From positions 1 to 58,638 of the forward strand of contig JAPLHB010000053.1 in the NCBI GenBank assembly GCA_026389845.1: a DNA stretch of 58,638 nucleotides. The letters run 5' to 3'. This stretch comes from Chloroflexota bacterium (GTDB lineage Bacteria; Chloroflexota; Anaerolineae; CG2-30-64-16). Made by a program: the position numbers and the translations under genes. Of the stretch, positions 41,640 to 58,568 are shown piece after piece. Below the pieces are notes generated by a model that saw only the letters and a program-made list of their open reading frames with translations, had not been told where the DNA came from and ran no database searches. Each line of letters starts with the position of its first letter. The first letter of the stretch is position 1.

Positions 41640-41768
41640 TCCGTGATGCGTGATGCGTGATGCGTGATCCGTGATGCGTGATATGGATCCTCTCGGCGAC
41701 CCCGGACCACGCAACACGCAACACGGACCACGCAACACGCAACACGCAACACGCAACACGCAACACGG
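41640..41768. repeat. Inverted heptamer arrays TGCGTGA and ACACGCA
   Basis: Forward TGCGTGA units at 41640-41682, then ACACGCA units at ~41702-41766. They fill the space between rimO and the convergent DUF1232 gene. Confidence 0.8.
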
Positions 41769-42411: not shown

Positions 42412-42461
42412 TAGCCTGAGTATAGTCGAACTTCCGTTCACCCGCAAACGCCGAATAGCCT

Positions 42462-42557
42462 TCACGCATCACGTTTCACGCAATACGCAATACGCAATAC
42501 GCAATACGCAATACGCAATACGCAATACGCATCACGCATCACTTATCACGTATCACG
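42462..42557. repeat. CGCAATA heptamer array
   Basis: CACGCATCACGTTTCACG, then six or more CGCAATA units, then CGCATCACGCATCACTTATC. It ends a few bases before the ATG of the next gene, so that gene's leader is repeat DNA. Confidence 0.85.
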
Positions 42558-42563
42558 CCCACC

Positions 42564-46153: not shown

Positions 46154-47788
46154 ATGCGTACCTTTGCCGAGCTTCTCAAGGAATACACCACCCGGACCGG
46201 CATCAGCGACGCCGAGCTGGCCCGGACGCTTGGCGTGCGCCGTCAGACGGTCTTCCGCTGGAAGGAGGGGCTGGTGGCGCGGCCGCGGGACGTGGAGGAC
46301 GTCCTGCGCTGCGCGGCCAGGCTGCGGCTGACGCCCCAGGAACGGGACGAGCTGTTGATCGCGGCCGGGTTTCCGCCGGAGGAAACCCCTCCCCCAACCC
46401 CTCCCCTGCGAGGGGTTGGGAGCCTGCCTCCCCCTTCCCCGCCAGGGAAGGGGGTCGGGGGGATAGGTTCGATCATCTGGCTGGCTGTGGCCGTGCTGCT
46501 TATCGCGCTCGCCGCCATCCTCTATCTGGCGTTCTTCCGCGGGCGCAACGACCGTTACCCCAGCGCGGCCCAGGGTGAGACGCTGATCGTCGTGGGGCAG
46601 TTCGTCAACTACGCAGGCGGGCAGCAGAGCTACAACGTGGCCGGGCGAGTGGTGGAGGCGCTCAAGCGCGAGGTGGACGCCGCGCGGCTGGCGGAGACGC
46701 GGGTGGCAGCCTGGCCCGATCCCGTCGGCGACGAGGCGGCCGCGCGGGCGGTTGCCGGGCGGTCGCGAGCCGGCCTGGTCATCTGGGGCGAGTACGACAG
46801 CGGCCGGGCGCTGGCGCACTTCACCGCGGCCGGCGCAGGGCTGGATGAGCGTCGCGTGGAAGTGCTCACCGCGTCGCCGGCCGAGCTTTCCGCGACGATC
46901 AACAGCGCATTGCCCGAGGAGGTGCGCTATCTGGCCTTGTTGACCGTGGGGCAACTGTACATCGAACGCGGCGACGCCAGCCGGGCGCGGGCGACGTTGA
47001 CCCAGGCGCTGGCGCGTCCCCCGGCGGACCCGGCGGCCCAGGCCACCCTCTACGCGACTCTGGGCTACGTCTACCACGTCGGGGCGCCGGCCGACCTGGA
47101 TCGGGCCATTGACCTCTACTCACAGGGGGTAGCGCTCGCGCCGCAGACCGTGTCGCTGCTCAACAACCGCGGCCTCGCCTACCTGCGCCGCGGGCAGCCG
47201 GGCGACGCCGAGCGGGCCATCGCGGATCTGACCGCGTACCTCACGGCCCTGCCCGACACCGCCGTGGCTTACGTCAACCGGGGCGCGGCCTACTTCCAGA
47301 TCGGCGGGGCGGAGAACCTGGCGCGGGCCGTGGACGATTTCAGCCAAGCCCTTGCGCTGAAGCCCGATGCGCCGGAAGCCTACTTCAACCGCGGCCTGGC
47401 CTACACGCGGCTGAATGAGCCGGAGAAATGGCAGGCCGACTTCGAGCGCGTGCTGGCGTTGCAGCCAGACCATAGCGGGGCCTACAACGCCCTCTGCTGG
47501 GCCTACGCGCTCGACCGCCGGCCCGAGACGGCGCTGCCCTATTGCGAGCGAGCCGTCGCGCTCGACCCGACCGGTCCCGGCCGCGACAGCCGCGGCATCG
47601 TCTACGCCGAGCTGGGTCGCTATTCTGATGCGATTGCCGACCTAGAGGCTTATTTGAGCGCCTTACGCCAGCAGGACAGCCGCCTGTATGCTCAGTACGC
47701 GCCCAAGCGTGAAGCCTGGATCGTCGCGCTCCGCGCGGGGCGCGATCCGTTTGATCAGGATACGCTGGAAGGGTTGCGCGGGGAGTAG
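46154..47788 (+). CDS. HTH-TM-TPR protein, first gene of the NACHT/DGR cluster
   Basis: A 544-residue protein. Residues ~1-75 form a cI-type helix-turn-helix (ISDAELARTLGVRRQTVFRW). Residues ~78-104 are a Pro-rich peptide (PPPTPPLRGVGSLPPPSPPG) encoded by an inserted palindrome. One membrane helix lies at ~107-130. Residues ~135-250 resemble the FlgO/TolB-like nucleotide sugar/sensor fold (LIVVGQFVNYAGG, RAGLVIWGEYD). About six TPR units follow (AYVNRGAAYFQIGG, EAYFNRGLAYTRLNEP). It would place TPRs outside and the HTH inside. It precedes the first NACHT gene by 40 bp on the same strand, so it is probably co-transcribed; a role as regulator or ligand adaptor is inference. Confidence 0.8.
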   Translation: MRTFAELLKEYTTRTGISDAELARTLGVRRQTVFRWKEGLVARPRDVEDVLRCAARLRLTPQERDELLIAAGFPPEETPPPTPPLRGVGSLPPPSPPGKGVGGIGSIIWLAVAVLLIALAAILYLAFFRGRNDRYPSAAQGETLIVVGQFVNYAGGQQSYNVAGRVVEALKREVDAARLAETRVAAWPDPVGDEAAARAVAGRSRAGLVIWGEYDSGRALAHFTAAGAGLDERRVEVLTASPAELSATINSALPEEVRYLALLTVGQLYIERGDASRARATLTQALARPPADPAAQATLYATLGYVYHVGAPADLDRAIDLYSQGVALAPQTVSLLNNRGLAYLRRGQPGDAERAIADLTAYLTALPDTAVAYVNRGAAYFQIGGAENLARAVDDFSQALALKPDAPEAYFNRGLAYTRLNEPEKWQADFERVLALQPDHSGAYNALCWAYALDRRPETALPYCERAVALDPTGPGRDSRGIVYAELGRYSDAIADLEAYLSALRQQDSRLYAQYAPKREAWIVALRAGRDPFDQDTLEGLRGE

Positions 47789-47828
47789 GTTTTGGGTATT
47801 GGGTATTGCGTTCGGCAGGAGTAAACTT

Positions 47829-50660
47829 ATGCACGAGAACCCTCGCGATGCCGACCTGCAGGCCAGGATCGCCGCTATGGAGCGCGAGCTGGCCGAGCTG
47901 AGGAAACGCCAGGCTGCCGTCCAGAACACCGGCCCCGGGACCGCGTTCGCCGGGAATCAGGACGTTGTTATCCCCGGCTCAGTCGGCGGCGACGTCAAAG
48001 TCGTCTACGGCAACGTCTACAGCGGGCCGCCGACGACCGATCCGGCCGAGGCGCTGCGCATCTACCGCCACGTGCTGGTGGCCGGCAGCCGCTACCTGCC
48101 CCTGCGCGGGGTGGACGTGGGCGCGGGCGACCCGTCGGCCGGACAGAAGTCACTCGACCTGGCGCGCGTCTACATCGCACTGGACACCAAGACCCAGGCG
48201 CTTGTCGAGGAGAAGCCGGAGCGGGGGCGCCCATCGCGCGAGCGCGGCGAGCCGCTGCGCGAGGGCGAGAAAACGCGACCGCTGCCCGCGCTGGAGGCGG
48301 CCGCGACCAACCGGCGCCTGGTTTTGCTGGGCGATCCAGGCTCGGGCAAGTCTACCTTCCTGGGACACCTGGCCCACTGCCTGGCCGCACACGCATTGGA
48401 GCCACAGGCTGGCTGGCTGGACCACCTGTCGGGCTGGCCGGACGCCGCCGCGCTGCCGGTGACCGTGGTGCTGCGCGATTTCGCGCGCTGGCTGGCGGTG
48501 CAGGTGGAGGCCCAGGCTGAGGCAAAGGTTAAGGTTAAGGTTGGGATCGAGGCCGAGCCGAGCCTGGTGTGGGAGTTCCTGGGCGAACGGCTGCGGGCGC
48601 AAAACCTGGCTTTCGTGACCGATCCGCTGGCCCAGGCGCTGGAGGCGGGACAGGCGTTCCTGCTGTTCGACGGGCTGGACGAGATCGCCGGCCGCGGCCC
48701 GGTGCGCCTGGTGCGTGATGCGGTGGCCGCGTTCGCCGATCGTTATCGCCGCTGCCGCTGCCTGGTCACCTGCCGCACCCTCTCCTACCGCGCGGCCGAT
48801 TGGCAGATGCCGGGCTACCCCACTTTCGAGCTGGCGCCGTTCGACGAGGCCAAGATTGACCGCTTCGTGGCCGCCTGGTACGCTGAGCTGGCCGAGCAGG
48901 GTGTCGTGTCGTCCGGCGACGTGGCGGGGCTGACGAAAGCGTTGGCCGCGGCCCTGCGCCGGCCGGACCTGTGGCGGCTGGCCCCCAACCCGCTGCTGCT
49001 GACCGTCATGGCGCTGGTGCATACGCACAAGGGCCGGCTGCCCGACGCCCGCGCGCTGCTCTACGAGGAGACGGTCGAAATCTTGCTCTGGCGCTGGGAG
49101 CAGATCAAGGCCGGCGGGCGCAGTGACGAGACGCCGCGATTGCGCCAGCTTCTCCTGCAGGCCAACCGGGGCGACGTGGATCTCAAGCGCGTCCTGTGGA
49201 AGCTGGCCTTCGAGGCGCACAGCCAGGGCGGCGCCGGCTGCGCCGCCGACGCAGTGGCCGACATCGGCGAGCTGCGGCTCCTCAGGGAGTTGGGCGGGCT
49301 GTGCTGCGGCGACCTGGGCTGGGCGCAGCAGGTGGTGGAGGCGATGAAGCTGCGCGCCGGGCTGCTGGTGGAGCGCCAGCCCGAGGTGTTCAGCTTCCCG
49401 CACCGCACCTTCCAGGAGTACCTGGCCGGCGCGCATCTGGCTGCGCAGGCCGACTTTGCCCGCCGGGCCGCGGGGCTGGTGGCCGAGGGCGCGCACTGGC
49501 GTGAGGTGATCCTGCTGGCCGCCGGCAAGCTGGTCTATGGGGCCGGCGACCTGGACAAGCCGCTGGCGCTGGTGGGCGAGCTGTGCCCGGAGCGGTCGCA
49601 TGACACGCCTCTGGCCTGGCGCAAGGCCTGGCTGGCCGGCGACGTGTTGCTGGAAGTAGGGCCGGAGCGGGCCGGCGACAGCCAGCTCGGGCAAGACCTG
49701 ACGACCCGCGTGGCTGGCCGGCTGGCCGAGCTGCTGATCCAGGGGCGGCTGGACCCCGTGGAGCGCGCCCGCGCCGGCGATACCCTGGGCCGGCTGGGCG
49801 ACCCGCGGCCTGGTGTGAGGCTGCGGCCGGATGGATTACCCGACATTGCCTGGTGCGACGTGTCGGCGGGCGAGTTCATCATGGGCAATACCAAGGAAAC
49901 CGATGACATGGCGTATGATAGTGAGGCGCCGCAGCACCGGGAACCCTTGCGGAAGGCCTACCGCATCTCCAAGTACCCAATCACCAACGCACAGTTCGCA
50001 GCGTTCGCCGTTGATGGGGGCTACCAGCAGCGTCAGTACTGGCAGCACGCCGAGCGGGCGGGCTTCTGGCGTGCTGGCCAAGTCCGAGCATATCACTACG
50101 TGGAAGATGACTGGCGGGAGGGTTGGTTCGATGGGCCGGAGAACCTTCGATTTGCGCCGCATCTGGCGAGTCATCCTGTCGTGGAGGTAAGCTGGTTTGA
50201 AGCCGTGGCCTTCTGCCTCTGGCTCGGCGACAAACTGGAACTGCAGGTATCCCTGCCGACTGAAGCGCAATGGGAGCGGGCCGCGCGAGGCACAGATGGC
50301 CGCCGGTATCCTTGGGCTGGCGAGTTGACATCCGACCATGCGAACTACGCCGACACGGGCATTGGCGCGACGACCGCGGTGGGCATCTTCCCAAAGGGCG
50401 TCACCCTGGAGGCCGGCGTGCTGGACATGAGCGGGAACGTCTGGGAGTGGTGCCGAACCAAATGGCGGGGGAGCTACAAGGGCAAGCCGGATGATGGGCT
50501 GGACGGCACGGACACGCGCGTGTTGCGCGGGGGCGCCTTCTTCGATCTTGCGAGGAGCGTGCGCTGCGCCTACCGCTACAGGTACGTTCCGCGCGGCCGC
50601 GGCTGGTTTATCGGTTTTCGGGTAGTTGCGTCTCCCATCATTCATGACTCTGGCGTCTGA
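47829..50660 (+). CDS. NACHT NTPase with C-terminal FGE/C-type-lectin domain (DGR target 1)
   Basis: A 943-residue STAND-type protein. Residues 10-31 are a coiled coil. Residues 32-65 hold a glycine/valine-rich motif (NTGPGTAFAG, then GSVGGDVKV) shared with the C-terminus of the caspase-like protein. The NACHT ATPase has Walker A GDPGSGKS (168-175) and Walker B LLFDGLDEI (Asp281), and the winged-helix end FPHRTFQEYLAGAH. Residues ~670-943 are a formylglycine-generating-enzyme-type (FGE) domain (PTEAQWERAARGTDGRRYPW, DMSGNVWEWC) of the C-type-lectin fold used by DGRs. Codons ~896-936 are the variable repeat. The ATG has AGGAG upstream. I infer that it senses a ligand with its variable surface and oligomerises through NACHT. 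Confidence 0.93.
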   Translation: MHENPRDADLQARIAAMERELAELRKRQAAVQNTGPGTAFAGNQDVVIPGSVGGDVKVVYGNVYSGPPTTDPAEALRIYRHVLVAGSRYLPLRGVDVGAGDPSAGQKSLDLARVYIALDTKTQALVEEKPERGRPSRERGEPLREGEKTRPLPALEAAATNRRLVLLGDPGSGKSTFLGHLAHCLAAHALEPQAGWLDHLSGWPDAAALPVTVVLRDFARWLAVQVEAQAEAKVKVKVGIEAEPSLVWEFLGERLRAQNLAFVTDPLAQALEAGQAFLLFDGLDEIAGRGPVRLVRDAVAAFADRYRRCRCLVTCRTLSYRAADWQMPGYPTFELAPFDEAKIDRFVAAWYAELAEQGVVSSGDVAGLTKALAAALRRPDLWRLAPNPLLLTVMALVHTHKGRLPDARALLYEETVEILLWRWEQIKAGGRSDETPRLRQLLLQANRGDVDLKRVLWKLAFEAHSQGGAGCAADAVADIGELRLLRELGGLCCGDLGWAQQVVEAMKLRAGLLVERQPEVFSFPHRTFQEYLAGAHLAAQADFARRAAGLVAEGAHWREVILLAAGKLVYGAGDLDKPLALVGELCPERSHDTPLAWRKAWLAGDVLLEVGPERAGDSQLGQDLTTRVAGRLAELLIQGRLDPVERARAGDTLGRLGDPRPGVRLRPDGLPDIAWCDVSAGEFIMGNTKETDDMAYDSEAPQHREPLRKAYRISKYPITNAQFAAFAVDGGYQQRQYWQHAERAGFWRAGQVRAYHYVEDDWREGWFDGPENLRFAPHLASHPVVEVSWFEAVAFCLWLGDKLELQVSLPTEAQWERAARGTDGRRYPWAGELTSDHANYADTGIGATTAVGIFPKGVTLEAGVLDMSGNVWEWCRTKWRGSYKGKPDDGLDGTDTRVLRGGAFFDLARSVRCAYRYRYVPRGRGWFIGFRVVASPIIHDSGV
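50515..50634 (+). other. DGR variable repeat 1 (VR1)
   Basis: 120 bp colinear with the template repeat at 52265-52384 (no gaps). 19 positions differ, and all 19 are adenines in the template. The encoded stretch reads [20 protein letters not shown] and on to [20 protein letters not shown] sequence; where the template has AAC or AAT codons this copy has Phe, Asp, Leu, Ser, Tyr, Val, Arg, Gly and Trp. Confidence 0.97.
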
Positions 50661-50748
50661 ATACTCTGGACTCTGGTACTCTGGAAATCTGAACTCTGGC
50701 CCCTCGGAGACCTTTTTCATCTGCGGTGATTAAACGCGGGGCAAAAAA
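50635..50748 (+). other. Conserved 3' flank of VR1 with small hairpin
   Basis: This stretch and 55940-56053 match with about nine substitutions and no gaps, beyond the coding region. Both contain CYGCG-N9-CGCGG (here 50721-50739), where the C-to-T change keeps a G-U pair, followed by an A-run. Nothing like it follows the template repeat. Confidence 0.7.
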
Positions 50749-50756
50749 GTGGGTAT

Positions 50757-50795
50757 TTCACGTGCCTGGCACTTCGCAAGTGCCAGGCACGTGAA
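50757..50795. repeat. Palindrome at the 5' end of the RT gene
   Basis: A 39-bp near-perfect inverted repeat: TTCACGTGCCTGGCACTT and AAGTGCCAGGCACGTGAA. Same family as 9450-9480. It contains the GTG used as the RT start candidate. Confidence 0.8.
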
Positions 50796-51885
50796 GAGAG
50801 AGAAGCCATTGGAAGCGCTGACCTACGCGCAGGTACACGACTGGGACAACCTCTACCTGGCCTGGCGCAAAGCCGCGCGCGGTAAACGGGGGCGGGTCGC
50901 GGCCGCGCGCTTCGAGTATCACCTGGAGGACAACCTGGTGACGCTGCAGGAAGAACTGGCCGCCCAGACCTATCGTCCCGGCCCCTATGCGAGCTTCCAC
51001 ATCCACGAGCCGAAGAAGCGCCTGATTTCTGCCGCGCCCTTTCGAGATCGGGTGGCGCATCATGCGCTCTGCAACGTGATCGAGTCGGCGTTCGAGCGCA
51101 GCTTCATCGCCGACAGCTATGCCAACCGGATCGGCAAGGGCACACACCGGGCGCTGGATCGCTGCCAGGCGTTCGCCCGCCAGTACCGTTACGTGCTGCC
51201 CTGCGACGTGCGGCAATTCTTTCCGAGCATTGATCTGGAGATCTTGGGCGGCATCCTCCGTCGCAAGGTGCGCGACCCGGATATTCTATGGCTCATCGGG
51301 CAAATCCTGGCGAGCGGTACGGGCGTTTTGAGCGAGGAATACGACATGATATACTTTCCCGGCGATGATCTGTTCGCCGCGACCCGGCCGCGAGGCCTGC
51401 CTATCGGCAACCTGACCAGCCAGTTCTGGGCCAACTGCTATCTGAACGCATTCGATCACTTCGTCGGCAAGGAGCTGCGCTGTCCCGCCTACCTGCGCTA
51501 CGTGGACGACTTTCTGCTCTTTGCCGACGACAAGGCGCAGCTCTGGGATTGGAAGGCAGCCATCATCGGCCGGCTGGCTCGTTTGCGTCTGACCCTCCAT
51601 GAAGAGAGCACGCAAGTCCAACCGGTGACCGAAGGCATCTCGTTCCTGGGCTTCCTGGTTTTCCCCGAGCACCGCCGGCTGAAGCGCCGCAAGGGGCTCG
51701 CCTTCGTCCGCCGGCTGCGAGTACTGGCCATGCGCAGCGCCGCGGGCGAGATCGCACTGGACCAGGTCCACGCCTCCGTCCGGGGCTGGATCAACCACGT
51801 GCGCTACGCCAACACGATCGGGCTGCGCAAGGGCATCCTGGGGCGCACTCCCATCCGTCCCGCCATGCCAAAGGCCACCACATGA
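50791..51885 (+). CDS. DGR reverse transcriptase
   Basis: A 364-residue reverse transcriptase of the DGR group. DWDNLYLAWRKAARGKRGR is the usual opening, motif A is CDVRQFFPSI (Asp139), motif 4 the DGR-typical GLPIGNLTSQFWANCYLN (where group II and retron enzymes have other residues) and motif 5 YLRYVDDFLLF with the catalytic Asp239 and Asp240. GISFLGFLVFPEHRRL follows. DGR RTs copy the template RNA and misincorporate at adenines. The start is uncertain: GTG 50749, GTG 50791 and TTG 50809 are all in frame; a purine-rich GAGAGAGAAG precedes the TTG. Its ATGA overlaps the Avd gene. It lies between the two target genes. Confidence 0.96.
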   Translation: MKREKPLEALTYAQVHDWDNLYLAWRKAARGKRGRVAAARFEYHLEDNLVTLQEELAAQTYRPGPYASFHIHEPKKRLISAAPFRDRVAHHALCNVIESAFERSFIADSYANRIGKGTHRALDRCQAFARQYRYVLPCDVRQFFPSIDLEILGGILRRKVRDPDILWLIGQILASGTGVLSEEYDMIYFPGDDLFAATRPRGLPIGNLTSQFWANCYLNAFDHFVGKELRCPAYLRYVDDFLLFADDKAQLWDWKAAIIGRLARLRLTLHEESTQVQPVTEGISFLGFLVFPEHRRLKRRKGLAFVRRLRVLAMRSAAGEIALDQVHASVRGWINHVRYANTIGLRKGILGRTPIRPAMPKATT

Positions 51886-52235
51886 ACGATCCGACACCGT
51901 TGTTCACCAAGACGTTCGACTTCGTCACCTGGCTGATCACGGTGACCAACAACTTCCCGCGCGGGCAACGCTTCCTGGCGACGCAGCGCCTGCTGAATGC
52001 GGCGTTCGACTTTCAGGAGCTGACCCTGGAGGCCAACATCAGCCTGCCGCCGGTACGGCTGGCGAAGCTGAAAGAGGCGGATGCGGAACTGGACAAGGTG
52101 CGCATCTACCTGCGGCTGACGCTGAAGTGGGAGTGGCTCAAGCCGGGCCAGTACCAGCACGCGGCCGCGATGGTCACCGAAATCGGCCGGCTGCTGGGCG
52201 GCTGGCAGCGAGTACTCAGACAACCTGCGGCGTAG
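51882..52235 (+). CDS. avd: Avd-like DGR accessory protein (four-helix bundle)
   Basis: A 117-residue, highly charged helical protein matching the Avd/bAvd pattern: [20 protein letters not shown], then [35 protein letters not shown] and [16 protein letters not shown]. Avd forms a basic pentameric barrel that binds the RT and the template RNA and is required for mutagenic reverse transcription. The ATG overlaps the RT stop by 4 bp, and the template repeat begins 29 bp after its stop. This order (RT, Avd, TR) is a standard DGR cassette. Confidence 0.93.
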
Positions 52236-52264
52236 GCCGCTTCGTTGTAGGGCCGGACCGCCGG

Positions 52265-52384
52265 CGCGCGTGTTGCGCGGGGGCGCCTTCAACAATAATG
52301 CGAGGAACGTGCGCTGCGCCTACCGCAACAGGAACAATCCGAACAACCGCAACAGGAATATCGGTTTTCGGGTAGTTGCGTCTC
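52265..52384 (+). other. DGR template repeat (TR)
   Basis: 120 bp whose reading frame resembles the C-terminus of an FGE domain but with AAC/AAT (Asn) codons at the variable sites ([20 protein letters not shown]). It contains 28 adenines, clustered in AAY codons, which when mutated give the widest choice of amino acids. It matches VR1 and VR2 without gaps; homology ends after TCGGTTTTCGGGTAGTTGCG TCTC, a stretch almost free of adenine that serves as the re-entry (initiation) zone. No coding gene is expected here. Confidence 0.97.
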
Positions 52385-52512
52385 ACGTCATTCCCCAGGC
52401 CGGCAGGCATGAAGTATTGTCTGCACGGCTGCCAGAAATGCCGGGCGGTGTGGGCTGCCCGGCCGAGGCGATGAATGATGGCTCGGTCCGTGTCCTGGCC
52501 GCGCGTCCTCCC

Positions 52513-52545
52513 AGACCTTCGAGGTTTCCGAAACCTCAAAGGTCT
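52513..52545. repeat. AGACCTT palindrome downstream of the TR
   Basis: A 33-bp imperfect palindrome: AGACCTTCGAGGTTTC and GAAACCTCAAAGGTCT. A sister palindrome lies at 52625. Confidence 0.7.
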
Positions 52546-52624
52546 CCGGGGGGCGCCGGGCGAATAACAACCGGCCCGCCCCTGCCGGCCTTACCCCCGG
52601 TTTGGGCGGGCCAAATGCATGAGT

Positions 52625-52657
52625 AGACCCTTTGGGTTTGCGAAACCCAAAGGGTCT
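52625..52657. repeat. AGACCCTTTGGG palindrome before the second NACHT gene
   Basis: A perfect 33-bp palindrome with arms AGACCCTTTGGGTTT and AAACCCAAAGGGTCT and a 3-nt centre, 17 bp upstream of the ATG. It could shield or separate expression of the next gene from the TR transcript. Confidence 0.75.
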
Positions 52658-52674
52658 GGCAAACGAGGTATAGC

Positions 52675-55600
52675 ATGGATCTAACCTGGCTCAACACCCT
52701 TCCCGAACCCCTCAAAGCCATCTTGCTCGGTGCAGCCGGCGACTTCCTGGGTGGCATGGCCGCGGACGTGACCGGTCGTCTGATCGACGCGGCCGGCTAC
52801 CAGGTCAAGAAACGCTTTCGGCCTGGGCCGCAGCAGGCCGCTTTGAATGCGGCCATGGCCGAGGCGCTGTACGTGACAGCCGAAGGGTTGACCAGCGATC
52901 CCGACACCCTGACGCACTATCTCGGCATCTTGGGCCAATGGCTGGCGCGGGATGCGGTCGTCGGCGAGCTCTCGCTGGTGGTTGACCCGCGGCCGGACGC
53001 CGAGCTTGACCTGACGTTACTGGCTGGGGAGTTCGAGGCGCTGGGCTTCGAGCCGGACTTGCTGGGCGAAGACGTCACCTTCGAGCAGGTCATCGGCCGG
53101 CTGGTGCAGGCATTCTACGACGCCGCCAGCAGACAGCCTGAGCTGCAAGGCCAGTTGGAAATCGGGTTGCTGCGTGGTATCGTGGAGAACACGTCTGAAC
53201 AGGTGCGCTTGCTGCGGCGGGTCGTCAAGGCGTTGGAACACCCGGCACCGCGCGCTCAGGAGCCACCCGGCCATGGCGCTCAGCCAGCGCAGGGTGATGT
53301 CGATTTCGCTGGCAATTACAATACCGTTATCACCGGCAAGGTGATAGGTAACGTCGAAGTCCATCACGGCGATACTATAATCGTGCAGCCCGATGCTGGG
53401 GCGGAAGCGGCCCGCCAAGCCGAGGCGCACGCCCGCCGGTGCTACTTGGAGCACCTGCGACGCCAGTGCCAGGCGTTGCCACTGGCCACGCTGGGGGGTG
53501 ATGAGACCAGCGACCAAGATCTGACCCTCGATCAGGTGTACATTGACCTGGACACGACCACCCGCGTGCCGTTGAGCGACGAGGAAAAGCAACACCGCAA
53601 AGAGCGTGCCTCAGCGCTGCCTACCGAGCGTGGTGAAGATTCTCGGCCTGTGGCGGCCCTTGAGGCAACCGCGCAAGCGCCACGGCTGGTGCTGCTCGGC
53701 GCTCCCGGCGCCGGGAAGAGCACTTTCGCCCGCATGGTACTGGCTCGGTTGGCCGGGGCCCATCTGGAGGGGACTGAGCCGCCGCCGGGCGTAGCCCCGG
53801 AGTTGCTCCCGATCCTGGTGACCCTGCGTGACCTGGTGCCCCGACTGAATATTTTGGACCTGAAAAACCTGCCGGCTGACCGCGCACAGATGATGCTGGC
53901 GGCTATCTTGCGGGATCAAGTGTTGGAAGACCTGGCACGCCTGGAAGCTGCCGACTGTGCCGGGTCGCTACGGGATGCTCTAACCGATGGCCGCTGCTTG
54001 CTGGTACTGGATGGCCTGGACGAGGTGCCCCAGGCGTTGCGCAAGCTGGTGCGTCTGACTGTGGCCGCGGTGATCGGGCAATATGCGCCCCAACGGCTGA
54101 TCGTCACCTGTCGCGTGCGTTCCTATGTGGGCGATGCTGTCTTGACCGGTTTCCGGGAGCACACCCTGGCGCCGTTCGATGACGAGCGGATCAAGCGCTT
54201 CGTGCAGGCGTGGTACAACGCCCAGAAGCATTTGGGGCGCTTGGACGCCGGCCAGGCGCAAAACCGCACAGCCGACCTGATCAGCGCGGCGCTTGCGCCC
54301 GATCTGCGTGAGTTGGCAACCAACCCGATGATGCTGACCACCATGGCCATCATCCACCAAAAGGAGATCGGACTGCCGCGCGAACGCGTGCGGCTCTACG
54401 ACCTGGCTGTGGACGTGCTGCTGCGCCGCTGGCAGAAGCGCAAGACCGGCGAGCAAGCGATGGCCCCTTCTCCCGCACTGGCGGAATTCCTGAAGGACGA
54501 CCTGCGCTTACGTGCAACGTTGGAGCGCCTGGCCTACGATGCGCACACTCGCGGCTTGCGCCAGGGCGAGGCCGCCGAGCTCACGCGAGGTCGCGCCTTG
54601 GAATTGCTCGAAGAACCAGCCTACCTGGCCAGCGCAGGGCTTGCTGATGAGTTTCTGGACTACGTGGACCAGCGCGCCGGCTTGCTGGTGGGACGCGGCG
54701 GTGACCTGGGCCGGCCCACAACGTACGCTTTCCCGCATCGCACCTTCCAGGAGTATCTGGCCGGCTGCTATCTGGTAGGCGGGCGTGACGCTTCAGCAAT
54801 GGCACGCGCGTACTTCAGCCACGCCGATCAGGCCGATTGGCGGTTGGCCGCGCTGCTGGGGGCCGAGGAACTCTACTACAACCGGCGCGGGCAGTACAGT
54901 TTGCTCGATCTGGCCTATCGCCTTTGTCCGGCTGGAACCCTGACCGGCGAAAAAGCCCAGCGGGCGGGCTTGTGGTCAGGAGCGCTGGCTGCTGTAGCAG
55001 GGCGCGAGACCATCGTCCTGGATACCGACAGCCCCGATGGCGGCGCCGTTTACCTTGATCGGCTGTTGTCCCACCTGGTGACGCTGTTGACCAGCAAGCT
55101 GCGTCCGTCCGAGCGTGCGGATGCCGGCCGTTTGTTGGGCCAATTGGGCGATCCGCGGTCAGGTGTGGGACTGCGGTCGGACGGCCTGCCCGATATCGCC
55201 TGGTGCGACTACGACGTGTCGGCAGGCGAGTTCATCATGGGCAACACGAAGCAGACCGATGATATGGCGTGGGATGACGAGTCGCCGCAGCACACGGAGC
55301 AAATACGAGACCCCTACCGTATCAGCAAATATCCGATCACCAATGCGCAGTTCGACGCGTTCGTGCAGGACGGCGGGTATACCGCCAAATGGCGGGCTTG
55401 CTGGACGCAGGCCGGCTGGGAATGGAAGGGTGAGAGTGTCGCGCCGGACAAGCAGGGTGGCGTTTTCGACCTGCCCAACCACCCTGTGGTGATGGTCTCC
55501 TGGTATGCGGCGCACGCGTTCTGCAACTGGCTGAGCGAGAAGCTAAGCCTAGTCGTATCCCTGCCGACCGAAGCGCAGTGGGAGCGGGCCGCGCGAGGCA

Positions 55601-55965
55601 CAGACGGTCGCAGGTATCCTTGGGCTGGCGAGCTGACACCGAATCATGCGAACTACGCCGACACGGGCATCGGTACGACAACCGCGGTGGGCATCTTCGC
55701 GAAAGGGATAAGTCCCTGTGGCGCGCTGGACATGAGCGGCAACGTGCTGGAGTGGTGCCGGACCAATTGGCGGGACAACTATCAGACTCAACCTGATGAA
55801 GACCCGGAGGGAGATTCGGCGCGCGTGTTGCGCGGGGGCGCCTTCGGCTATCTTGCGAGGTACGTGCGCTGCGCCTCCCGCGACGGGTACGATCCGGGCG
55901 CCCGCTACAGGGATTTCGGTTTTCGGGTAGTTGCGTCTCCCATCATTCATGACTCTGGCGTCTGA
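52675..55965 (+). CDS. NACHT NTPase with N-terminal domain and C-terminal FGE domain (DGR target 2)
   Basis: A 1096-residue STAND-type protein. Residues 1-~195 are an unassigned mostly helical domain (WLNTLPEPLKAILLGAAGDF, VTAEGLTSDPDTLTHYLG, QLEIGLLRGIVENTSEQV). Residues 206-240 hold a looser copy of the shared motif (DVDFAGNYNTVITGKVIGNV). NACHT has Walker A GAPGAGKS (342-349), Walker B VLDGLDEV (Asp446, Asp449) and FPHRTFQEYLAG. Residues ~838-1096 are an FGE/C-type-lectin domain like that of target 1 (PTEAQWERAARGTDGRRYPW). Codons ~1049-1089 are variable repeat 2. The ATG at 52675 has GAGG upstream. It differs strongly from target 1 at the N-terminus, so it probably receives or passes a different signal through the same fold. 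Confidence 0.93.
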   Translation: MDLTWLNTLPEPLKAILLGAAGDFLGGMAADVTGRLIDAAGYQVKKRFRPGPQQAALNAAMAEALYVTAEGLTSDPDTLTHYLGILGQWLARDAVVGELSLVVDPRPDAELDLTLLAGEFEALGFEPDLLGEDVTFEQVIGRLVQAFYDAASRQPELQGQLEIGLLRGIVENTSEQVRLLRRVVKALEHPAPRAQEPPGHGAQPAQGDVDFAGNYNTVITGKVIGNVEVHHGDTIIVQPDAGAEAARQAEAHARRCYLEHLRRQCQALPLATLGGDETSDQDLTLDQVYIDLDTTTRVPLSDEEKQHRKERASALPTERGEDSRPVAALEATAQAPRLVLLGAPGAGKSTFARMVLARLAGAHLEGTEPPPGVAPELLPILVTLRDLVPRLNILDLKNLPADRAQMMLAAILRDQVLEDLARLEAADCAGSLRDALTDGRCLLVLDGLDEVPQALRKLVRLTVAAVIGQYAPQRLIVTCRVRSYVGDAVLTGFREHTLAPFDDERIKRFVQAWYNAQKHLGRLDAGQAQNRTADLISAALAPDLRELATNPMMLTTMAIIHQKEIGLPRERVRLYDLAVDVLLRRWQKRKTGEQAMAPSPALAEFLKDDLRLRATLERLAYDAHTRGLRQGEAAELTRGRALELLEEPAYLASAGLADEFLDYVDQRAGLLVGRGGDLGRPTTYAFPHRTFQEYLAGCYLVGGRDASAMARAYFSHADQADWRLAALLGAEELYYNRRGQYSLLDLAYRLCPAGTLTGEKAQRAGLWSGALAAVAGRETIVLDTDSPDGGAVYLDRLLSHLVTLLTSKLRPSERADAGRLLGQLGDPRSGVGLRSDGLPDIAWCDYDVSAGEFIMGNTKQTDDMAWDDESPQHTEQIRDPYRISKYPITNAQFDAFVQDGGYTAKWRACWTQAGWEWKGESVAPDKQGGVFDLPNHPVVMVSWYAAHAFCNWLSEKLSLVVSLPTEAQWERAARGTDGRRYPWAGELTPNHANYADTGIGTTTAVGIFAKGISPCGALDMSGNVLEWCRTNWRDNYQTQPDEDPEGDSARVLRGGAFGYLARYVRCASRDGYDPGARYRDFGFRVVASPIIHDSGV
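55820..55939 (+). other. DGR variable repeat 2 (VR2)
   Basis: 120 bp colinear with the TR. 18 positions differ, all at TR adenines. It differs from VR1 at many of the same sites. It encodes [20 protein letters not shown], then GYDPGARYRDFGFRVVAS. Confidence 0.97.
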
Positions 55966-56053
55966 ATACTCTGGTCCCTGGTACTCTGGACGTCTGGACT
56001 CTGGCCACTCGGAGACCTTTTACATCCGCGGCGATTAAACGCGGGGCAAAAAA
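55940..56053 (+). other. Conserved 3' flank of VR2 with small hairpin
   Basis: Partner of 50635-50748, no gaps. The hairpin CCGCG-N9-CGCGG is at 56026-56044. It runs directly into the Shine-Dalgarno sequence of the caspase gene. Confidence 0.7.
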
Positions 56054-56065
56054 GGAGACCCCCTC

Positions 56066-57046
56066 ATGACCCTTTTCACCCACGGCCATGCGCTTCTCAT
56101 CGGCGTCGGCGGGGAAATGCCGGGCACCGCGGCCGACGCGGAGCAGTTGGCGGCGCTGCTGACCGATCCGGGCCGCTGCGCCTACCCGCCGGAGCAGGTC
56201 GCCGTGCTCACCGCCGCGGCGGCCGGCCGGCCGGCGATCCTGGCCGGCCTGGAGCGTCTGGCCCGTGCTGCGGCCCCCCGTTCCACCGCCCTGGTCTACT
56301 TCTCCGGCCACGGTTATCGGGTCGCGTCCTCCAGCAGCGATGCGTATTTTCTGCTGCCGCACGGCTACGACCTGGCGCGGCTGGCTGAGACAGCCATCAG
56401 CGGCCAGGAGCTGGCCGGCCGGCTGGCCGCCATCCCCGCCGGCCGGCTGCTCATCCTGTTGGACTGTTGTCATGCCGGCGGCATCGGCGAGGCCAGGGCC
56501 CCAGGCCTGGCGTTCACCAAGGCGCCGCTGCCCCAGGAGGCGCTGGCGCTGCTGCAACAGGGTCGCGGTCGCGTCCTGATCGCCTCGTCGCGGGCCGATG
56601 AGCTGTCCTTCGCCGGCGACCCCCTCAGCGCGTTCACCCTGGCGTTGGCCGAGGCGCTCTGCGGCAGCGGCGCGGCCCGCCAGGATGGCACCGTCCGCGT
56701 CGCCGACCTGGCGCTTCACGCCCGCGAGATGGTGCCCCAGCGCACCGGCGCCCGCCAGCACCCGATCCTCCACTTCGAGCAGGCCGACAACTTCACCGTG
56801 GCCTACTACGCGGCCGGCGCGGCCCAGCCCAAGGGGGTACCGTTCGCCCGGCCGCCCGAGATCGAGCCGGCGCCCGGCGCGTGGCGCAGCGGACCGCGCA
56901 TCCGCGGCGATCAGATTCGCGCCGGCGGCCCGGTGGCCGCTCGCGGCAGCGCGCTCAACACCGGCCCTGGCGTCGCATTCGTCGGCGACGGCAACATCGT
57001 CATCACCGGCTCGGTCGGCGGCGACGTGCACCGCAAGGGCGACTGA
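56066..57046 (+). CDS. Caspase-like (C14) protease with C-terminal shared motif
   Basis: A 326-residue metacaspase/paracaspase-type protease. The p20 fold is seen as ALLIGVGGEMPGTAADAEQL, the catalytic histidine in VYFSGHGY (His82) and the catalytic cysteine in LLDCCHAGG (Cys135). Residues ~296-326 are a glycine/valine motif (ALNTGPGVAFVG, then GSVGGDV) that matches the N-terminal motif of NACHT target 1 at 17 of 24 aligned residues. A long linker (RPPEIEPAPGAWRSG) joins the two. Caspases in STAND clusters act as executioners. The ATG has AGGAG 7 bases upstream. It is last in the cluster. Confidence 0.9.
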   Translation: MTLFTHGHALLIGVGGEMPGTAADAEQLAALLTDPGRCAYPPEQVAVLTAAAAGRPAILAGLERLARAAAPRSTALVYFSGHGYRVASSSSDAYFLLPHGYDLARLAETAISGQELAGRLAAIPAGRLLILLDCCHAGGIGEARAPGLAFTKAPLPQEALALLQQGRGRVLIASSRADELSFAGDPLSAFTLALAEALCGSGAARQDGTVRVADLALHAREMVPQRTGARQHPILHFEQADNFTVAYYAAGAAQPKGVPFARPPEIEPAPGAWRSGPRIRGDQIRAGGPVAARGSALNTGPGVAFVGDGNIVITGSVGGDVHRKGD

Positions 57047-57218
57047 TTGCGGATTGCAGATTGCAGATTGCGGATTGCGGATTGCGGATTGCAGATTGCA
57101 GATTGCGGATTGCGGATTGCAGATTGCAGATTGCAGATTGCGGATTGCAGATTGCGGATTGCAGATTGCAGATTGCAGATTGCAGATTGCGGATTGCAGA
57201 TTGCAGATTGCAGATTGC
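57045..57218. repeat. GATTGCR heptamer tandem array
   Basis: About 25 units of GATTGCG or GATTGCA in 174 bp. It overlaps the caspase stop codon by two bases (tGA|TTGC). No gene inside. Confidence 0.95.
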
Positions 57219-57277
57219 TTGACATCCCCCCGGTCGCGTGGTAGCTTGATGTTTGGATAATCCAGAAATATGAGACT

Positions 57278-57368
57278 CAGTAGATCACAGTTCTCTTGCA
57301 GAGGCGGCTCCCATGCCGCCGGGCCGCAGGCGTGGGAGCCTGCTCTGCTATCAAATCATGATCTACTG
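57278..57368. mobile_element. Small inverted-repeat element, family 2 (copy A, 5-bp target duplication)
   Basis: A 91-bp element with termini CAGTAGATCA and TGATCTACTG and a central hairpin (GGCTCCCATGCC and GGCGTGGGAGCC). It is flanked by AGACT at 57273-57277 and 57369-57373. No coding region. A second copy is at 58406-58496. Confidence 0.85.
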
Positions 57369-57384
57369 AGACTTGGAGATAACT

Positions 57385-57585
57385 ATGCAAGAAGTGACAT
57401 TGACTCGGGTGGTGCAACTTCCCTCGCGCGGGCAGATCACCTTACCCACCGACTTTCGCCGCAAGCTCGGCCTGGTCGAAGGCGATCTGTTGCAGATGAC
57501 CCTGGTCGGTGAAAAGATCGAGATCCAGCCGGTGCGCACGGCTGATGCCAGGCTGCGCCAGTACACCGAGGCGGAAGTCGAGTAA
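57385..57585 (+). CDS. AbrB/MazE-type antitoxin, probably truncated by a stop codon
   Basis: A 66-residue swapped-hairpin DNA-binding antitoxin: VVQLPSRGQITLPTDFRRKL, then GLVEGDLLQMTLVGEKIEIQP. After the TAA at 57583 the same frame stays open and encodes FLEDDKIDAETAAAVRRLLA and ends TGA at 57658, overlapping the toxin start by one base. That tail looks like the normal C-terminus, so the TAA seems a recent nonsense change. The ATG has GGAG upstream, next to the right end of the small element. It precedes the PIN-domain gene. Confidence 0.8.
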   Translation: MQEVTLTRVVQLPSRGQITLPTDFRRKLGLVEGDLLQMTLVGEKIEIQPVRTADARLRQYTEAEVE

Positions 57586-57659
57586 TTTCTGGAGGACGAT
57601 AAGATTGACGCCGAGACGGCCGCCGCAGTCAGGCGACTTCTGGCAGCGGATGCGCTCTG

Positions 57660-58163
57660 ATGTCGGCGGAGGCTCGTACCAGAGTCTTCATTGACGCATC
57701 GGTCTGGATCGCCGCGACCGGCTCGCCCACGGGCGGCTCGTCGTTGGTCCTGGACGTTTGCCGCGGCATGCGTTACGTCGCGTTCTGCTCGCAGCGCGTC
57801 CTGCTTGAAGCGCAGACCAACATCCGCGATAAATTCCCAGCGGAGGCGTTGGTGCGCTTCTACCGCCTCCTGGCGGCCACCGCGCCCGAGATCGTGCCGC
57901 CTGCGACGCCTGGGCAAGAGGCGCAGTACGATCGGCTTGTCACGGCCAAAGATGCTCACGTCATCGCGGCGGCCCTCCACGACAGGACGCAATACCTGAT
58001 CACGCTCGACCGCAAGCACCTGGCCAATGAGGCGGTCCGCGGCGCCGGTCTGCCGTTTCAGGTGATGCTCCCCGGCGAGTTCCTTCAGGCGCAGTACCGC
58101 AAAACTCGCTTTGTCACCCCTTCGTTGCACTCAGGGCAGGCTCTGAGCGGGTTAGCCCCGTGA
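57660..58163 (+). CDS. PIN-domain toxin with a MITE-derived C-terminus
   Basis: A PIN-type ribonuclease of a VapC-like pair, 167 residues as read. It shows RVFIDASVWIAATGSP (first Asp of the site), ALVRFYRLLAA, DRLVTAKDAHVIAAAL (later Asp) and YLITLDRKHLA. The C-terminal ~23 residues (QYRKTRFVTPSLHSGQAL) are read from a family 1 element inserted after LPGEFLQA. If the element and one 8-bp target copy are removed, the frame would end GEFLQALLAAS followed by TGA. The start ATG at 57660 overlaps the TGA of the longer antitoxin frame (TGATG). Confidence 0.85.
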   Translation: MSAEARTRVFIDASVWIAATGSPTGGSSLVLDVCRGMRYVAFCSQRVLLEAQTNIRDKFPAEALVRFYRLLAATAPEIVPPATPGQEAQYDRLVTAKDAHVIAAALHDRTQYLITLDRKHLANEAVRGAGLPFQVMLPGEFLQAQYRKTRFVTPSLHSGQALSGLAP

Positions 58164-58299: not shown

Positions 58300-58405
58300 C
58301 TTCAGGCGCTGCTTGCCGCTTCGTGAACCTCTCACACTTCGCTAACACCCCGCGAACGTTGTTCTAACACGGATGCTGGATACTGGATGCTGAAAAGTGG
58401 AGGCT

Positions 58406-58496
58406 CAGTAGATCGCAGTTTCCTTGCAGAGGCGGCTCCCATGCCGCCGGCCCGCAGGCGTGGGAGCCTGCTCTGCTGTCAAATCGCGATCTACTG
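58406..58496. mobile_element. Small inverted-repeat element, family 2 (copy B)
   Basis: A 91-bp element, termini CAGTAGATCGC and GCGATCTACTG, flanked by AGGCT at 58401-58405 and 58497-58501. It is inserted within a heptamer array (GGATGCT/GGATACT before, GGATACTGG and TTCCAGC units after). Confidence 0.85.
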
Positions 58497-58501
58497 AGGC
58501 T

Positions 58502-58556
58502 GGATACTGGAAGCTGGCCGTACCGTGTTCCAGCTTCCAGCTTCCAGCTTCGAGAC
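58502..58556. repeat. TTCCAGC heptamer array
   Basis: Three TTCCAGC units at ~58531-58551, the reverse-complement partner of the GCTGGAT-type units at 58374-58395 and 58502-58516. It lies just before clpB. Confidence 0.7.
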
Positions 58557-58568
58557 TCGGAGGTCACC

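Follow-up and report, generated by a model that had tools for sequence, protein, structure and literature searches.

Can a single template rewrite two receptor genes, and by what mark would the rewriting machinery tell its targets from the template itself? These questions are raised by a diversity-generating retroelement (DGR) in a Chloroflexota bacterium (class Anaerolineae, CG2-30-64-16). The DNA analysed, referred to throughout as the window, is the whole stretch of 58,638 nucleotides at positions 1 to 58,638 of contig JAPLHB010000053.1 (NCBI GenBank assembly GCA_026389845.1); in our numbering it is contig C191 of genome G000, a draft assembly of 6.84 Mb (93.9% complete, 8.1% contamination). 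The element has one template repeat (TR), which its reverse transcriptase (RT) and accessory protein Avd very probably copy into cDNA with the adenines randomised, the copy replacing the matching 120 bases of two genes for NACHT-FGE proteins.

One template and two variable repeats

The repeats lie within the window as follows.

52265..52384, + strand: TR, 120 nt with 28 A
50515..50634, + strand: variable repeat 1 (VR1), the C-terminal end of the FGE domain of target 1
55820..55939, + strand: variable repeat 2 (VR2), within target 2
52385..52387, + strand: end of the TR resembling IMH* (IMH, initiation of mutagenic homing); at 52385 and 52387 VR1 and VR2 are the same and the TR is different

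In ungapped alignment, VR1 departs from the TR at 19 of the 28 template adenines (9 A to T, 8 A to G, 2 A to C) and VR2 at 18 (9 A to G, 6 A to T, 3 A to C), while neither departs from it at any of the 92 other sites. Were the changes spread at random over the 120 sites, the probability of all of them falling on A would be 1.2e-15 for VR1 and 1.2e-14 for VR2. Differences confined to template adenines are the mark of a DGR, and because the TR differs from both VRs at adenines alone, both predicted sensors have likely been randomised. When all ungapped alignments are scanned, these repeats are recovered again, their edges lying slightly further out (TR 52262-52386). Compared with each other, the two VRs are unlike at 17 sites. 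Both are altered at 14 sites, against a chance expectation of 12.2 (P 0.14 for at least 14), and at 8 of these 14 they carry different bases.

Codon positions 1 or 2 hold 27 of the 28 template adenines, which occur in 17 of the 39 codons; a stop codon can be reached from none of them, and 3.7e15 protein variants are possible. The mismatches to the TR that both VRs share at 52385 and 52387 match IMH and IMH* in place and form, and may function as IMH and IMH* would in the model built on phage BPP-1.

Reverse transcriptase, accessory protein and receptors

The genes of the locus are listed below; their order is a TPR protein (46154-47788), target 1, RT, Avd, TR, target 2 and caspase.

50749..51885, + strand: DGR reverse transcriptase; open reading frame (ORF) from a GTG at 50749, true start possibly downstream; RVT_1, E 9.9e-14
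51882..52235, + strand: Avd accessory protein; PF22296 (bAvd), E 5.8e-18
47688..50660, + strand: target 1, NACHT-FGE receptor; NACHT, E 3.8e-8, and FGE-sulfatase, E 1.8e-47
52675..55965, + strand: target 2, NNH2-NACHT-FGE receptor; NNH2, E 5.4e-9, NACHT, E 8.5e-7, and FGE, E 8.5e-54
56066..57046, + strand: caspase-family protein, predicted effector; Peptidase_C14, E 1.7e-15

DGR RTs can be recognised by (I/V/L)GxxxSQ together with YxDD (PMC3521204; here and below, statements on published work refer to those parts of the cited texts that were covered), and the translated RT of the window contains IGNLTSQ and YVDD. Chloroflexota account for 45 of the 80 named records kept as its relatives, the best match among them. 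The closest solved structure by sequence is 8ub7 chain A (E 6.5e-47), in which chain B is named Avd, and the Avd of the window, a DGR Avd by its Pfam family, matches 4dwl (Bbp7; E 2.2e-4). Both reading frames are open.

An earlier, sequence-only reading of this DNA had described a gapless 120-bp alignment of the TR with both VRs (19 and 18 A-only differences), an RT and an Avd-like protein between the repeats, and two NACHT-FGE targets under one template. The alignment proved exact, the Pfam matches and RT motifs bear out both proteins, and NACHT and FGE-sulfatase domains were found in both targets. That the VRs differ mutually at many sites holds as well (the 17 above), and the independent rounds of writing which it had proposed are consistent with the counts of shared sites and unlike bases.

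By their sequence, both targets are predicted to be receptors with a central NACHT domain and a C-terminal FGE domain of the lectin/FGE fold, with the VR at the C-terminus of the latter, as in the targets described by Dore et al., 2024 (PMC10907252). The start of target 1 is uncertain: the ORF from 47688 overlaps the TPR gene, and translation may in fact begin at the in-frame ATG at 47829. For the FGE domain of target 2 there are matches to 32 sequences of solved structure, including Treponema denticola variable protein 1 (TvpA, 2y3c; E 1.5e-16).

The C-terminal tail of the caspase and the N-terminus of the target 1 protein (NACHT1) have 25 amino acids in common at 68% (BLAST among 11 proteins), which is the form of a partner linked by a shared motif, there a peptidase with an adapter, in Dore et al., 2024. 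The pattern is also present in the target 2 protein (NACHT2), and in NACHT2 and the caspase of the nearest relative (genome G004); as a regular expression it matches 9 of the 120 caspase sequences listed, that of the window among them. A second cassette of this genome, C208, offers a parallel: the protein just behind one of its targets has 28 residues at 64% in common with the N-terminus of that target (BLAST among 11 proteins), and 64 residues at 39% with that of the remote C203 target. We read the shared motif as a putative homotypic adapter to an effector, by analogy with what has been proposed for other systems (PMC10907252; PMC7889193).

The C208 protein (L035 11153-11983) has, by eye, a zinc-ribbon-like start, and carries two motifs, one for each target (cis and remote).

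In the mechanism that we favour, RT and Avd would copy the template RNA into cDNA and place random bases at adenines, the A-specific error being taken from the BPP-1 model, as are retrohoming and the roles of IMH and IMH*. The mutated cDNA would then replace the matching 120 bases in both NACHT-FGE genes (retrohoming). The varied face of the FGE domain may serve as the ligand sensor of the NACHT switch, and the shared terminal motif may couple that sensor to the neighbouring caspase in the style of an abortive-infection receptor. A block 3' of each VR, consisting of an array of CTG triplets and then often a hairpin, would form part of the target site.

Further cassettes and remote targets

The structure described by the sequence-only reading stands, but its completeness does not: it had missed two further cassettes, three targets at remote sites and the block that follows both VRs. 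Besides the RT of the window, the genome encodes two more of this family, 63% and 61% identical to it, and it has in total three cassettes with eight targets under three templates, three of the targets lying on other contigs (C203, C72, C104). TR/VR pairs were accepted at seven or more A changes over at least 50 nt, a filter passed in 68 of the 108 related loci scanned.

The C208 cassette repeats the layout of the window. Its first cis target is changed at 16 of 27 A and at none of 84 other sites, and its second at 18 of 27 A and 2 of 84 other sites; in the scan of ungapped alignments the two are A-only over 129 and 99 nt. The same TR matches the remote C203 target over 78 and 43 nt, two stretches that are parted by a 2-nt insertion and changed at A only. 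The C108 cassette has a TR and one cis target with A-only changes (9 of 20 A over 72 nt), and its TR also matches, again A-only, remote targets on C72 (11 of 20 A over 73 nt) and C104 (8 of 20 A over 73 nt). Pfam domains make the C72 target a DUF4062-NACHT-FGE protein and the C104 target a TIR-NACHT-FGE protein, with FGE alone in C203. Because they lie at least 6 kb from the ends of their contigs, the three look like trans targets, on the evidence of a draft assembly.

Some further observations concern these genes. The 2-nt insertion in the C203 repeat (L010 2100-2227 / L044 5583-6947) shifts the frame of the tail, and may be a slip in writing or an assembly error. An FGE gene at C41 64112-64795 (L013) agrees with the window TR at 71 of 92 non-A sites and has a three-CTG chain behind it, and is possibly a former target. 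Another, near C165 60743 (L029), has a five-CTG array behind it and no perfect match to the three templates, and is possibly an orphan DGR target.

A block shared by the targets 3' of the variable repeats

Behind each VR of the window lies a block of about 112 nt, noncoding past its first 26 nt.

50635..50746, + strand: 3' block of VR1; coding tail with stop at 50658-50660, seven CTG at 50650-50698, weak hairpin
55940..56051, + strand: 3' block of VR2; seven CTG at 55955-56003, weak hairpin at 56025-56045

The two blocks are identical at 103 of 112 positions, and the VR2 block is identical to its counterpart in G004 at 92 of 113. The coding 5' flank of about 600 nt shows the reverse, with 388 of 618 positions identical between the paralogues of the window and 458 of 604 between the orthologues of window and G004. 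From these identities it follows that the coding parts split before the species did, whereas the blocks are closer within the genome. Accumulibacter gives a similar picture: two targets within locus L128 are 0.45 alike on the 5' side and 0.85 on the 3' side, while one of them and its orthologue in L125 are 0.85 alike 5' and 0.76 3'. Two targets within L113 are 0.49 alike 5' and 0.89 3'.

Over 22 target pairs, with flanks trimmed to the common TR end and two short-flank pairs dropped (L131, L078), the 3' alignment score exceeded the 5' score in 16 and exceeded the score with the template's own 3' flank in all 22. For the adjacent 50 nt, pairs were closer on the 3' side in 15 of 22 and on the 5' side in 7 (paired test, P 0.049). 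With untrimmed flanks, the nearest neighbour belonged to the same template for 38 of 46 VRs when judged by the 3' flank and for 18 of 46 when judged by the 5' protein; trimmed flanks gave a like result, which was weaker. The 3' block appears to travel accordingly with its template, in that it tends to follow the template rather than the gene, remote targets included. The likeness could stem from gene conversion, from a swap of domains at the VR or from co-conversion in the course of retrohoming.

The CTG heptad array and the hairpin

The CTG triplets of the window are spaced at 7, 9, 7, 8, 8 and 7 nt, identically behind VR1 and VR2. Chains of CTG, with triplets 6-10 nt apart, were counted in 73 loci, each represented by a single VR; the genome of the window contributes 6 of these loci (L126, a copy of L125, and L048 and L072 were left out; the flanks of L070 and L115 are identical). 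Four or more CTG in a chain occur 3' of the VR in 52 of the 73 loci, against 6 of 634 ends of other long ORFs (open frames, unverified as genes), none of 73 VR 5' flanks and none of 69 TR 3' flanks. CTG ranks first among the 64 triplets, the next being TCT, which overlaps it (25 loci), and 226 of 340 CTG spacings are 7 or 8 nt. Outside this genome (67 loci, grouped by record labels), at least four CTG were found in 21 of 32 loci from Chloroflexota, 10 of 14 from Pseudomonadota, all 7 from Acidobacteriota and the single one from Desulfobacterota not at all, with 5 of 8 in genomes of the window's class and 3 of 5 in other bacteria. Within the genome, chains of at least five stand behind 8 of 8 DGR targets and 1 of 15 other FGE matches (C165); these were 15 of the 16 non-target matches (C90 out), and C212 and one C17 piece end before the domain does.

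The array extends to viruses. On viral contigs with RTs 31-50% identical, 25 of 31 loci gave a VR, 12 of them with at least four CTG. Rescoring left out the duplicates L178 and L199 and moved the start of the scored stretch 10 nt into the VR; at least four CTG then stood behind 13 of 23 viral VRs and at least three behind 17, compared with 4 and 14 of 416 ORF ends. Chains of at least three were absent from all 23 TR flanks and all 23 VR 5' flanks. Among eight named phages examined, Bacillus BalMu-1 (four CTG) and Faecalibacterium FP_Lagaffe (three) carry it, and it is absent behind the VR in BPP-1, ANMV-1, vir525, ACA1, YPCBV-1 and phiARM81mr. CTT heptads replace CTG in cyanobacterial plasmid DGRs (L204-L208; at least three in 5 of 5), and plasmid DGRs of Ideonella and Prosthecochloris have chains of 2 and 0 CTG.

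Hairpins commonly follow the array, are GC-rich and frequently have a T-run. A stem score of at least 20 was reached in 63 of 96 VR 3' flanks (several VRs per locus in some cases), compared with 2 of 92 flanks on the 5' side and 26 of 480 plain base shuffles; in this genome, the six targets outside the window score 28-44. In BPP-1, a stem-loop 3' of the VR is needed for efficient retrohoming (PMC3240598).

More tentatively, and with the odds somewhat on the other side, we propose that the CTG heptad array (7-8 nt, typically 4-7 copies) and the hairpin make up an address label that passes from gene to gene and is kept uniform, by homogenisation, across all targets of a template. The label would be read by the retrohoming machinery, perhaps by pentameric Avd, and would distinguish VR from TR. 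If this is true, a genome could put new, even remote, receptors under one template, and the lack of an array in BPP-1, which has been studied at the bench more closely than any other DGR, would explain why the label was overlooked.

Other functions of the array were also considered. Pairing with CAG repeats in the template RNA was rejected, at least four CAG being present in 2 of 67 200-nt stretches 5' of the TR and 0 of 68 3' of it. At least four CTG occur in 18 of the 67 5' stretches; by our reading these stem from the VR block just upstream. A supply of stop codons in all frames is disfavoured (chains of at least four TGA in 6 of 73 loci, against 52 of 73 for CTG), and the constant G speaks against a Rho utilisation (rut) site.

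The genome is rich in repeats of period 7, and mutually unrelated tandem repeats of that period lie in the window at 57045-57226, 41706-41768, 42454-42558 and 58500-58560 (GATTGCA, ACACGCA, ATACGCA and CTTCCAG types). A 19-bp inverted repeat with a 3-nt loop and a G-T pair at its outer end lies at 50756-50796, between the VR1 block and the RT; no hairpin as strong was found behind VR2. Further downstream, a 102-nt repeat in two copies, 91% identical (57272-57373 and 58400-58501), flanks a putative AbrB-like/PIN toxin-antitoxin pair at about 57385-58163, labelled by eye.

Alternative explanations

Several observations weigh against the readings preferred above, and are taken here with the explanations to which they lend weight. 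The rewriting of VR1 and VR2 is predicted from the pattern of the repeats, on the basis of sequence alone and of one assembly, and ligand sensing, defence and caspase activation are predicted roles only. In G004, the orthologous locus keeps the RT (811 of 993 nt identical to that of the window), NACHT2, parts of the VR and the caspase; its Avd is broken (L076 C359, L157 C401), and the G004 genome yielded no match resembling a TR. On these two grounds the G004 locus is a decaying copy, and such loci do decay. The DGR of the window could likewise have been silenced recently, with VR1 and VR2 written in the past and now fixed, and this would agree with its own weak hairpins and with the degenerate DGR loci already known (PMC10907252). 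We nevertheless consider it distinctly improbable, as the TR equals both VRs at all 92 non-A sites, which suggests no drift since the last writing, and the frames of RT and Avd are open. Another view would treat the FGE domains as enzymes, with the A-only pattern serving to tune their catalysis and not the sensing of a ligand; the Pfam family is that of the sulfatase-modifying-factor enzymes. This seems to us highly implausible, given that the varied part is the C-terminal region, the part that varies in DGR lectins. TvpA (2y3c) matches, and fusion to NACHT and a caspase partner fit a sensor.

For the proposed address label, the strongest competitor holds that the array is unrelated to rewriting, being either a common intergenic heptamer repeat or the leader of a transcription terminator, and we place this not far below an even chance. 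A four-CTG heptad pattern has 117 matches in the genome and its reverse 19; among 100 matches listed, exact ATCTGCA repeats make up 48, a DGR target is the site of one (C191:50672), and some of the rest (e.g. C9, C19, C58, C153) are degenerate arrays resembling those of DGRs. TAACTGA heptamers occur in Beggiatoaceae, cyanobacteria and Bacteroidetes, with DGRs unmentioned in the text covered (PMC4679880), and at many loci the hairpin with its T-run resembles an intrinsic terminator. The four-CTG chain is lacking at 21 of the 73 loci, no CTG array follows the VR of BPP-1 (chain 0), and the hairpins of the window are weak (scores 11 and 12), with only a 6-bp stem and a 9-nt loop near VR2. On the other side stand the enrichment behind VRs over ORF ends, TR ends and VR 5' flanks, its recurrence in the viral loci, and the separation of DGR targets from other FGE matches within the genome; moreover, the 117 matches say little about the DGR arrays, because most of these miss the strict pattern. 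Since the genome holds many other heptad arrays, an array is no proof of a target: it does not imply one, and a target mostly implies an array. The likeness of the 3' blocks might also reflect recent gene duplication rather than homogenisation or a portable target block. The 7 of 22 pairs that are closer over 50 nt on the 5' side, with a paired test that is marginal, are in keeping with duplication, VR1 and VR2 are mutually nearest by 5' protein too, and across species the first target of L125 and that of L128 are 0.88 alike 3' and 0.52 5', counter to homogenisation within a locus. Duplication is still unlikely in view of the opposed block and 5' flank identities in the window and in L128, and of the 38 as against 18 of 46 VRs whose nearest neighbour shares their template. 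We retain the portable, homogenised label as a tentative proposal beside the better supported rewriting of both receptors from one template.

Comparison with known systems

A two-target NACHT-FGE DGR is a kind already known (PMC10907252), and DGRs of clade 5D commonly have two targets with C-type lectin (CLec) and STAND domains (Dore et al., 2024). The window resembles these clade 5 (5D) elements in having an RT, an accessory protein, one TR and two targets with central NACHT/STAND and C-terminal CLec/FGE domains, a likeness drawn by domains. Several loci per genome, some trans targets and a peptidase partner joined by an adapter motif are further points in common (PMC10907252). It departs from those systems in that its partner is a caspase whose tail motif is rich in glycine, a single genome combines three templates with eight targets, and TIR-NACHT and DUF4062-NACHT proteins are among the remote targets. 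The three cassettes with eight targets in one genome, the VR 3' block and the CTG array are what is added here. A search of the text covered of Dore et al., 2024 (PMC10907252) gave no hairpin, no terminator and no IMH outside author names, and no report of a CTG or heptad array behind VRs was found in the open-licence literature covered, a scope that leaves subscription papers and preprints outside.

As in BPP-1 (Guo et al., 2011; PMC3240598), the VRs vary at A only and Avd, RT and IMH/IMH* are present. The order is VR-avd-TR-RT in BPP-1 and VR1-RT-Avd-TR-VR2 in the window, whose hairpin is weak; the stem-loop of BPP-1 is needed for retrohoming to be efficient. Cyanobacterial DGRs with remote variable proteins likewise have targets dispersed in the genome (PMC7517822), with FGE targets by plasmid annotation; unlike the window, the cyanobacterial plasmid loci have CTT and not CTG behind the VR in all five examined. 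The terminal motifs recall the BASS amyloid motifs of NOD-like receptors (NLRs), where a short motif stands at the C-terminus of an effector and the N-terminus of the NLR encoded by an adjacent gene (PMC7889193; PMC8086366). The TAACTGA arrays of Beggiatoaceae also bring CTG at heptamer spacing in intergenic DNA, but are exact repeats and lie mostly before start codons (PMC4679880).

The retrohoming of mutated cDNA into the VR is still called incompletely understood (PMC12875486). An array behind the VRs of Chloroflexota, Pseudomonadota, Acidobacteriota and viral DGRs, and absent behind the TRs examined, makes the question testable, and it might aid the annotation of remote targets. Set beside the known systems, the locus adds another clean example of hypermutated NACHT sensors, within a network of eight predicted targets under three templates.

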